From Polynucleobacter arcticus (GTDB lineage Bacteria; Pseudomonadota; Gammaproteobacteria; Burkholderiales; Burkholderiaceae), in the NCBI RefSeq assembly GCF_013307205.1, contig NZ_CP028940.1, positions 1,843,702-1,907,701 on the forward strand: DNA of 64,000 bases, read 5' to 3'. How positions within the stretch are numbered: position 1 is the stretch's first letter; each line of letters opens with the position of its first letter. The notes under the pieces are model-generated. The model was not told the origin of the DNA and ran no database searches. It was given only the letters and a program-made list of their open reading frames with translations. Shown piece by piece: positions 61,138-62,706 of the stretch. The translations under genes and the position numbers were made by a program.

Positions 61138-61566
61138 TTAAATCTCTAACGCTTTTGGCTGTTGAGCCGCATGCGGATGACTGGCGTCGCCGTAGACTTT
61201 TAATTTCTTAATCATGGCATAGCCTAGTGGGCCTTTTGGCAACATTCCCTTCACAGCCTTCTCTAAAGCGCGACCTGGAAAACGATCTTGCATTTTGTCG
61301 AAGTTGGTCGAGCTAATACCACCTGGGTATCCGCTGTGACGGTAATAAATTTTGTTCAAGCCTTTTGTGCCTGTGACACGCAGCTTAGAAGAGTTGATGA
61401 CAACAATGAAGTCGCCGGTATCAACGTGTGGGGTGTATTCAGGTTTATGCTTGCCGCGTAGACGGAGTGCCACTTCACTGGCGACACGACCGAGGACTTT
61501 GTCCGTAGCGTCAATCACGAACCATTCATGCACTACCTCATGGGATTTTGCAGAAAAAGTTTTCAT
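61138..61566 (-). CDS. rplM: 50S ribosomal protein L13
   Basis: 142 residues. [45 protein letters not shown] (about 15-59) and RHSGYPGG are characteristic. First gene of rplM-rpsI. Its 5' region (61567 upward) is unusually long, about 400 bases to the divergent osmC start, and contains a complete promoter-hairpin-terminator unit. Confidence 0.98.
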
Positions 61567-61725
61567 GATTTCTCAAATTGTTATAGTCAAAAAAAATTAC
61601 TCCAACCAAACTACGTCCACCTTGGCCCTGCTTATGTTTGCAAGCTCGCAGATTCTGTAATTCACTTGGTACAACCATTACCGCTGACTGGTTCGGTAAT
61701 TCAGTAAAGCCTTGAATTGTAACCC

Positions 61726-61827
61726 AAAAAAAACCCAGGAACGAGTCCTGGGTTGGAATCCACCTATGTTTAAGTGGAGGAGACACTGGGAGGTAAGTCG
61801 CAGTCTTGTATAAGACTGACTACCAAT
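61726..61827 (-). ncRNA. candidate small RNA upstream of rplM with anti-Shine-Dalgarno motifs
   Basis: About 102 nt on the minus strand. Near its 5' end is CAGTCTT-ATAC-AAGACTG (7-bp stem, 61818-61801). Then come ACCTCCC (61794-61788) and CTCCTCC (61782-61776), which resemble the 16S 3' end CACCUCC. A small stem TCCAC/GTGGA (61778-61774 and 61763-61759) follows, and finally a perfect 9-bp stem (61754-61746 with 61740-61732) with eight U. No reading frame with a start fits. From memory it resembles the reported betaproteobacterial toxic small RNA family near the L13 operon. It could instead be an rplM leader attenuator. Confidence 0.65.
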
Positions 61828-61833
61828 ATGGTT

Positions 61834-61863
61834 ATTCTACACAAAAATTATGGTGCAACGCAA
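61834..61863 (-). promoter_or_regulatory. sigma-70 promoter of the candidate small RNA
   Basis: On the minus strand TTGCGT (61863-61858), an 18-base spacer and TAGAAT (61839-61834): four of six and five of six consensus bases. Transcription would begin near 61827, shortly before the first hairpin. Confidence 0.55.
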
Positions 61864-61868
61864 GAAAA

Positions 61869-61947
61869 TTGACCAAAATCAATTAATTGATGTTTTTTAG
61901 CCAAAACCTCTTTCCTTAAAAATTGATAAACTATTGATAATATTGAT
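61869..61947. promoter_or_regulatory. Crp/Fnr-like box and ATTGAT repeats upstream of osmC
   Basis: TTGACCAAAATCAA (61869-61882) is one base off TTGAT-N4-ATCAA. ATTGAT recurs at 61886, 61922, 61933 and 61942; the last three are spaced 11 and 9 bases. TTGATA elements here can also act as -35 boxes for osmC (for example TTGATA-17-ATTAAT). Which are regulator sites and which are promoter elements cannot be settled by eye. With the small RNA, this accounts for what I see in the 408-base gap. Confidence 0.35.
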
Positions 61948-61974
61948 TAATTTACTAAGTTAGGGGTCACTAAT

Positions 61975-62397
61975 ATGGAATGTCAAGTATCTTGGTTGGG
62001 AGTTGGTGGCATGGCTTTTTCAGCAGAAACAGGTAGCGGCCACCTTGTAAAAATGGACGGCCCACCCGATGCAGGCGGTCAAAATAGCGCCCCGAGACCG
62101 ATGGAGTTGATTTTGGCTGGTACTGGAGGATGCTCTGCATTTGATGTAGTTTTAATCCTACAGCGTGCCAAACAAGCTATTAGCGCTTGTGACGTAAAGC
62201 TCACTGCGGAACGGGCGGAAGTGGAACCCAAGGTCTTTACAAAAATTCATCTGCATTTCACAGTAACCGGCAAAGACCTAGAGCAAGCTAAGGTTGAGCG
62301 GGCCGTAAAGCTATCTCACGAAAAGTATTGCTCAGCGACCAACATGTTGGCAAAAACCGCTGAAATCACTTACAGCATTGATCTCATTTCTGAATAA
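61975..62397 (+). CDS. OsmC family protein (YhfA-like)
   Basis: 140 residues. The redox pair of the OsmC/Ohr superfamily is present: Cys53 in GTGGCSAFDVVLIL and Cys119 in EKYCSATNML. Family relatives reduce organic hydroperoxides, but this short form, with RPMELILAGTGGC, is closer to YhfA, whose role is not well known. It reads toward rnpB, only 2 bases away on the other strand. Confidence 0.85.
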   Translation: MECQVSWLGVGGMAFSAETGSGHLVKMDGPPDAGGQNSAPRPMELILAGTGGCSAFDVVLILQRAKQAISACDVKLTAERAEVEPKVFTKIHLHFTVTGKDLEQAKVERAVKLSHEKYCSATNMLAKTAEITYSIDLISE

Positions 62398-62399
62398 GT

Positions 62400-62706
62400 G
62401 CAGAGTCAATCGATAAGCCGGATTCTGTCGCCTAGATTTGCATCTAGGGGCAATCATTCCTCTAGGCCGGCAGTTACCTGACGGCTCAAGCTCCCTACCC
62501 GCAGACTCAGCGGATCGCCTCATCGCCTGCTTACTTGGGATTGCTCCGGGTGGAGGTTACCGCGTTTCACCGTAACTAAATACGCTCGTCTCTGTGGCCC
62601 TATTCCTCACGTCACCGTGGATGGTCGTTAACCATCACCCTATCCTATGGAGTCCGGACTTTCCTCCCCCTCAATAAAGAGGCGGCGATTGCCCAATTGA
62701 CTCTGC
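62400..62706 (-). ncRNA. rnpB: RNase P RNA (rnpB), class A
   Basis: Catalytic RNA that matures tRNA 5' ends. P1 is formed by GCAGAGTCAAT (62706-62696) and ATTGACTCTGC (62410-62400). The conserved GAGGAAAGTCCGGACT lies at about 62666-62651 and the 3' ACAGAATCCGGCTTAT at about 62428-62413; GAGCAATCCCAAGTAAGCAGGCGATG and GGGAGCTTGAGCC regions lie between. At about 307 nt it is on the short side for class A. It converges on osmC, so its terminator, if any, lies within that gene. Confidence 0.95.

Follow-up and report, generated by a model that had tools for sequence, protein, structure and literature searches.

We analysed a window of 64,000 nucleotides from the genome of Polynucleobacter arcticus (contig NZ_CP028940.1, positions 1,843,702 to 1,907,701). 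Near one end, its minus strand carries a compact small RNA (sRNA) unit (Table 1). The downstream neighbour of the sRNA is rplM, the gene of ribosomal protein L13, with relatives that are 82-100% identical in 80 loci. Upstream lie an RNase P RNA gene (RF00010, 240.8 bits; 62398-62704, minus strand) and, between this gene and the sRNA, a 140-aa ORF on the opposite strand.

Table 1 Features of the sRNA locus (positions are those of the window).
Feature	Position	Strand	Remarks
Whole sRNA unit	61863-61725	minus	Promoter, 5′ hairpin, CU-rich stretch, 8-bp hairpin, 9-bp terminator
Putative sRNA promoter	61834..61863	minus	TTGCGT 61863-61858, 18 nt, TAGAAT 61839-61834; by sequence
PhaR-consensus site TGCGTTGCACCA	61851..61862	minus	Perfect match to TGCRNYGCASMA; overlaps the −35 element and spacer
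Predicted primary transcript	61726..61827	minus	~102 nt; start placed from the −10 element; sequence and fold
5′ hairpin	61801..61818	minus	CAGUCUU-AUAC-AAGACUG, 7 bp
Linker ACCUCCC	61788..61794	minus	Second anti-Shine-Dalgarno (anti-SD) stretch; half paired, clade-specific
Conserved core	61725..61785	minus	RF02278 match, 51.8 bits (gathering score 50)
CU-rich stretch UGUCUCCUCC	61785-61776	minus	By sequence
Open seed UGUCUCC	61779..61785	minus	Complement of GGAGACA at ribosome-binding sites
Hairpin 2	61759..61778	minus	UCCACUUA-AACA-UAGGUGGA; loop without the CUCC of many relatives
Intrinsic terminator	61725..61754	minus	9-bp stem (61754-61732) and U tract
TACAAT	61716..61721	minus	Directly after the sRNA terminator; kept as TACAAT, TAGAAT or TATAAT in rplM-linked Polynucleobacter copies
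rplM (L13)	61138..61566	minus	142-aa ORF; name by reading, not by family search

The promoter TTGCGT-18-TAGAAT, the 7-bp hairpin and the 9-bp terminator named in a preliminary description of this DNA are all present in the sequence, and the U run of the terminator amounts to eight U if the last stem bases are counted. The segment 61834-61726 folds at −35.2 kcal/mol, compared with a mean of −21.2 kcal/mol for shuffled sequences (z −4.51, 0 of 200 as good). Within 61500-62000, the sRNA terminator is the sole terminator-like site (mean of 0.3 in shuffles). A simple promoter scan of the same interval does not list the sRNA promoter, which fits 8 of 12 letters and 3 of 6 in the −35 element. Relatives of the sRNA have a comparable −35/−10 layout, and the promoter assignment is based on this conservation, not on the scan. 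The 5′ arm of the 5′ hairpin is present in 54 of 84 Polynucleobacter copies. This hairpin is probably removed by processing, as in the relatives NcS27 and S17, and the mature sRNA is probably trimmed to ~60 nt. The preliminary description also proposed two exposed or partly exposed CCUCC segments. Both occur in the sequence, but in the fold of the 102-nt transcript pairing is ~95% for the A-C-C of the linker ACCUCCC and 87-100% for the final U-C-C of the second CCUCC, whereas UGUCUCC has an unpaired probability of 0.95-0.99. Since UGUCUCC is open and both CCUCC are partly paired, the seed is GUCUCC more than CCUCC.

The Rfam model RF02278 is matched over its whole length (E 1.6e-7), and the match has the unpaired CU-rich start of the family, followed by two hairpins of which the second is an intrinsic terminator. 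The suspected membership in a betaproteobacterial toxic sRNA family is thus borne out by the Rfam search, and we regard this identity as close to certain. The sRNA belongs to a known family that includes NcS27 and S17, and the element is not a new kind. P. arcticus has exactly one RF02278 match. At E <= 0.001, the genus search gave a match in 86 of 101 genomes (75 of 79 among good assemblies), and 63 of 101 have one over the gathering score; across the family, 137 of 150 genomes, representing 20 of 25 genera, have a match, with up to nine in large genomes. Stricter filters, which lose weak matches, were used in both the genus and family searches. We looked at 90 of the 93 genus matches, and four had no recognisable core.

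The sequence GUCUCCUCCA, which includes the second CCUCC, is invariant in 20 representative cores, copies that were gathered partly by that same motif. The terminator stem is also conserved: among 20 diverse cores, 88% of the cells pair, and both sides changed 32 times, compared with 9.8 in shuffles. The pairs of hairpin 2 were read by script because MAFFT misaligned this hairpin; C-G is the fourth pair in 12 of the 20 cores, and U-A in the other 8. The loop of hairpin 2 carries CUCC in 11 of the 20 representative cores; the sRNA described here lacks it, and its Polynucleobacter clade has the linker ACCUCCC instead. Conservation of the CCUCC segments and the terminator stem, against which the preliminary description wished to be judged, therefore holds for the seed and the stem but not for the first CCUCC, which is clade-specific and present in the linker of 46 of 84 Polynucleobacter copies. 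Genomes G080, G099, G093 and G072 (loci L288, L289, L290 and L295) have a second RF02278-like RNA, a weaker one with the core GUCUCCUCCAUA and a UAUGG stem; it lies under the gathering score and has no PhaR site of the type described below.

The sRNA ends 160 nt before the ATG of rplM (61726 to 61566), in agreement with the earlier estimate, and lies upstream of rplM on the same strand, as do the copies of the rplM-linked (NcS27-type) subgroup. NcS27 itself is presumably situated near rplM. Its published position is BCAL3348a/BCAL3349. By a strict pattern, 30 of 80 named rplM loci have an sRNA copy within 700 nt upstream, and a separate search added L094. At L089, L090 and L104 the copy is found 714-993 nt upstream of rplM, and L074 has just 61 nt of sequence upstream. 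Polynucleobacter, Herbaspirillum, Undibacterium, Limnobacter, Paraburkholderia and Cupriavidus are among the bacteria with rplM-linked copies; with the strict pattern and the 700-nt limit, no copy was found at the rplM loci of Massilia, Janthinobacterium, Duganella and Comamonadaceae in the set of 80. Genomes with several copies (up to nine) must have all but one away from rplM. Given these loci and the multi-copy genomes, the special role at the ribosomal-protein operon suggested earlier is unsupported, and rplM control was set aside as the main function. TACAAT is likely the −10 element of a separate rplM promoter, which would then overlap with the sRNA terminator.

PhaR is a repressor that responds to the storage polymer PHB. 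The consensus TGCRNYGCASMA, matched perfectly in the sRNA promoter, was obtained for Bradyrhizobium PhaR from footprints and an alignment (PMC6201568), and a repeated TTGCRNYGCAMMA is seen at the −35 element of many sRNA copies. The pattern has 18 sites in the P. arcticus genome, compared with 2 for the reversed pattern; most of the 18 sit within open frames, so the pattern alone is no proof. We counted sites within 120 nt upstream of the core and required the core motif TCTCCTCC. A PhaR site with at most one mismatch precedes 122 of 154 unique sRNA copies, and the reversed pattern precedes 0 of 154. Polynucleobacter contributes 67 of 83 copies (57 perfect, 10 with one mismatch) and other genera 55 of 71 (40 perfect, 15 with one mismatch), the latter set being weighted to the 30 best-scoring family hits. 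Shuffled upstream regions gave 0.1 perfect and 0.4 one-mismatch sites per 111. In a core-anchored alignment of short-leader copies from 38 hand-chosen loci, of which 15 were left once similar flanks had been removed, the spacer columns GCA and CA stay conserved in the 15 copies, with farther flanks <60% identical.

Some copies depart from this pattern. No PhaR site at <=1 mismatch precedes 19 of 86 genus copies, and most genomes with such a copy do have phaR. In Cupriavidus, the perfect site of copy L111 lies farther upstream, at −154, and copy L134 has no site within 320 nt. At the usual place, the site has decayed in the Burkholderia rplM-linked copies L089 and L090, which are likely orthologous to NcS27. 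This decay agrees with a published observation (PMC5688073) that an upstream motif is common to three of the four homologues in B. cenocepacia, but it also counts against the PhaR reading, as NcS27 was published with a similar expression profile. On the evidence of the motif, PhaR control of the sRNA promoter is likely. The presence of a PhaR-consensus site in the promoter of this sRNA appears to be new; no statement of RF02278 RNAs under PhaR was found in the literature searched, with Kimelman 2012 and Sass 2019 outside its scope. Perfect PhaR-consensus sites are also present elsewhere in the P. arcticus genome (G000:C1, 981665, 997748 and 902791): L150 has one ahead of a solute-binding protein gene, L151 one ahead of an alternative oxidase gene, and in L148 one lies between sequences that, by eye, resemble secG and tRNA-Leu.

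Besides the promoter consensus, the P. arcticus genome contains one PhaR-type gene (PF07879) and three phasin hits. The best phasin gene has a perfect PhaR site starting 49 nt ahead of its start; the other two hits have none (3 and 2 mismatches), and the phaR leader has a degenerate match only, TGCATTGCGGTA. Phasin hits totalled 34, and for the 30 with a locus the 200 nt upstream were examined for a site in both orientations. For 14 strong phasin genes (>90 bits, 13 genomes), the site is perfect in 11, has one mismatch in two and two mismatches in one, and none of the reversed controls has a match at <=1 mismatch. The 16 weaker hits include three perfect sites and one with one mismatch. A second PhaR-type (PF07879) gene is found in three Polynucleobacter genomes (G014, G020 and G099).

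Among 150 family genomes, 131 have both the sRNA and phaR, 11 have neither, 6 have the sRNA alone and 2 have phaR alone, a co-occurrence that is confounded by genome reduction, as joint absence mostly marks small genomes. In the genus, phaR was found in 97 of 101 genomes. Three genomes without a phaR hit (G101, G134 and G139, 99-100% complete) hold four sRNA copies with 4, 3, 1 and 4 mismatches to the PhaR site; the single-mismatch site lies at another place and has a broken GCA half. G150 (83% complete) has no phaR hit, and its PhaR sites are two perfect ones and one with a single mismatch; its phaR may simply be absent from the assembly. G157 (99%) and G180 (85%), also without a phaR hit, have weak sRNA matches only, with no recognisable core.

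Candidate targets were sought at translation starts. GGAGGAG before ATG (pattern GGAGGAGN{2,10}ATG) has 11 matches in the P. arcticus genome and 6 with the reversed control, a weak excess. Six of the 11 lie at ATGs opening frames of 323-501 aa: four encode carboxylate-uptake proteins of the periplasmic binding type (TctC in three cases and TRAP DctP in one, the DctP gene carrying GGAGGAGA), and one is helicase-like by eye. At ribosome-binding sites, GGAGAC is found in 6 of 11 TctC genes and 0 of 196 others (Fisher 4.5e-9), GGAGACA in 4 of 11 and 0 of 196, and plain GGAG in 7 of 11 and 41 of 196. The TctC set comprises all 11 full genes, leaving out a twelfth, partial match under the cut-off; the background of 196 genes comes from the window and ten 20-kb stretches. 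A single start-picking rule was used for both sets; it placed some background starts at apparently wrong GTG or TTG codons and probably mispicked at least one TctC start (L312). The remaining 5 of the 11 TctC genes lack GGAGAC. Duplex energy with the seed region is stronger for TctC than for the background (p 6e-4), and the gain with linker and seed together is weak (p 0.058). The linker ACCUCCC alone gives no duplex gain for TctC over the background (p 0.55) and, without enrichment, was rejected as the main target site. The SD strength itself is higher in TctC (p 0.014). The TctC leaders might also share the box by common ancestry.

Plasmid genes with annotated starts provided a further comparison, drawn from 25 hand-chosen stretches out of 60 listed of 795 matching records; of eight larger stretches, three unannotated ones (L334, L335 and L337) were left out. 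GGAGAC occurs in 6 of 12 betaproteobacterial TctC genes and 3 of 119 others (p 1e-5), where 10 of the 12 TctC genes are from Comamonadaceae and seven are on one plasmid. The alphaproteobacterial plasmids, with 1 of 15 TctC genes and 3 of 66 others, do not repeat this pattern, and GGAGACA is found in 5 of 12 beta- and 0 of 15 alphaproteobacterial TctC genes (p 0.0098). Since the alphaproteobacterial TctC genes have strong SD sites (GGAG in 11 of 15), it is the extension past the SD that differs, not the SD. The lone Achromobacter TctC gene in the plasmid set lacks the box, and the one gammaproteobacterial TctC gene lacks GGAGAC. An ORF-based version of the test (beta 4 of 6 vs 2 of 113, alpha 0 of 3 vs 1 of 87) was replaced by annotated starts. 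A search of plasmids with one sRNA core found no copy. On plasmid CP099606, three non-TctC genes annotated as glycoside hydrolase, esterase and fumarylacetoacetate hydrolase family protein have a GGAGAC box (L332, 46595-48832; L333, 22491-23534 and 45183-46034) and are possible further catabolic targets. Judging from these boxes, uptake genes are likely targets of the sRNA; as both the SD-strength control and the composition of the plasmid set somewhat weaken the target test, the odds are slightly lowered. The match between the GGAGAC box at TctC starts and the open seed appears to be new.

We propose that the sRNA is a trans-acting RNA of the RF02278 type, with its own promoter and terminator, which is controlled by PhaR and PHB and blocks the translation of uptake proteins; we give this reading a probability of about 0.58. 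When PHB is absent, the repressor PhaR would occupy the sRNA promoter. Under carbon excess, when PHB granules form, PhaR would move to the granules and the sRNA would be made. In mRNAs for TctC-family (and DctP) binding proteins, its seed would then pair with the GGAGAC(A) at the start, blocking their translation, and carbon import would slow. The family owes its name to growth inhibition, which in this view would come from an excess of the uptake block. The published expression profile of the B. cenocepacia relatives, the slower growth upon NcS27 overexpression (PMC5688073) and the repression postulated for the S17 promoter (PMC11722255) are in line with this reading. The joined PhaR-sRNA-uptake circuit has even to somewhat better than even odds. 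The wider proposal, that RF02278 sRNAs form the RNA arm of a PhaR/PHB storage sensor across Betaproteobacteria and shut a GGAGACA-boxed carboxylate-uptake regulon, is more tentative, falling just short of an even chance.

Three other explanations bear on parts of this proposal. The sRNA could be a general translation brake, whose exposed anti-SD binds many strong-SD leaders and slows growth with no dedicated uptake regulon. The conserved CU-rich site and the somewhat stronger SD sites of TctC genes would agree with such a brake, as would the published description of the family as toxic in E. coli and the slower growth upon NcS27 overexpression (PMC5688073). However, the box that distinguishes TctC genes reaches past the SD, as the GGAGAC and GGAG counts above indicate, and a general brake seems quite improbable. 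Alternatively, the −35 motif might be that of another regulator or of the promoter itself, with PhaR uninvolved. The alphaproteobacterial origin of the consensus, the phaR-bearing Polynucleobacter clades without the site and the two NcS27-type Burkholderia copies without an intact one speak for this explanation. It is unlikely in view of the same motif at phasin promoters of the same family, the right half of the motif lying in the sigma-70 spacer, where conservation is unexpected, and the three genomes without a phaR hit (G101, G134 and G139), in which none of the four sRNA copies has an intact, usually placed site.

The position of the sRNA 160 nt before rplM and the TACAAT that abuts its terminator in Polynucleobacter would suit a cis element of rplM, acting by premature termination in a long leader or by promoter occlusion through sRNA transcription. 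Such an element is very hard to reconcile with the 50 of 80 rplM loci that have no copy within 700 nt in the pattern test, the copies that multi-copy genomes must hold elsewhere, the terminator of the sRNA itself and the action of its relatives in trans. The PhaR-controlled, trans-acting uptake block is the reading we prefer. If true, the sRNA signals the cell to halt organic acid import when its carbon store is full. The wiring would then be convergent, as in Sinorhizobium the same regulator controls an sRNA of a different family, MmgR. Once its repressor, signal and target box are named, the "toxic RNA" would become a testable storage-to-uptake feedback, and this circuit concerns non-pathogens of ecological and bioplastic interest. 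What is new is the wiring; the element itself is of a kind already known.

Several known sRNAs can be compared with this system. The Cuckoo RNAs/CcsR anti-SD sRNAs of alphaproteobacteria have CCUCC-rich stem-loops and represent another family and gene context. NcS35 was dropped as a relative, as its paper reports no Rfam hit. B. cenocepacia has four RF02278 homologues, NcS27, ncS03, ncS05 and ncS62 (PMC5688073; PMC10987360). NcS27 is processed, its overexpression slows growth and its silencing speeds growth; levels of the B. cenocepacia relatives rise in biofilm, under starvation and in glucose medium. In 2017, the regulators of their accumulation were called unknown (PMC5688073). According to a review citing Sass 2019, NcS27 attenuates growth on several carbon sources (PMC10987360). 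In a preprint on Bordetella, S17 is processed by RNase E and represses a sigma-54 activator in a reporter; 92 genes are raised in its absence, 70 of which have complementary sequence near ribosome-binding sites. The same preprint describes a lack of activation of the S17 promoter by BvgA~P in vitro and postulates repression in vivo by an unnamed repressor (PMC11722255). Pairing with mRNA leaders, as the preliminary description supposed, matches this published mode of the relatives at ribosome-binding sites (PMC5688073, PMC11722255), and its view that the native role of the family is still unclear is out of date, given the NcS27 and S17 work. In S. meliloti, the sRNA MmgR is repressed by PhaR/AniA (PMC12542648, PMC8401924), and a 2021 review calls riboregulation undeciphered in Cupriavidus necator, the model PHB producer (PMC8401924).

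The sRNA of P. arcticus resembles the NcS27 group in its Rfam match, two hairpins, open CU-rich start, terminator and short length (NcS27 has 92 nt and can be trimmed), and in its place upstream of rplM, which is also found in the Burkholderia loci L089 and L090. Unlike the NcS27 group, it is present as a single copy, has no CUCC in the loop of hairpin 2, and has the 5′ hairpin and the linker ACCUCCC that mark its own clade; its PhaR site is intact, whereas that of L089 and L090 is decayed. With S17 it shares the RF02278 homology stated by the S17 authors and a similar −35 element (TTGCAT in S17), and it would also share pairing at ribosome-binding sites and many transporter targets, but S17 has a 190-nt precursor and another gene neighbourhood and is higher in the Bvg+ mode. 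MmgR is similar as an sRNA that PhaR/AniA represses via a dyad between −35 and −10 and that responds to the C:N ratio. It differs in belonging to the alpha-r8 RNA family and acting on phasin expression, whereas the predicted targets of the P. arcticus sRNA are uptake proteins.
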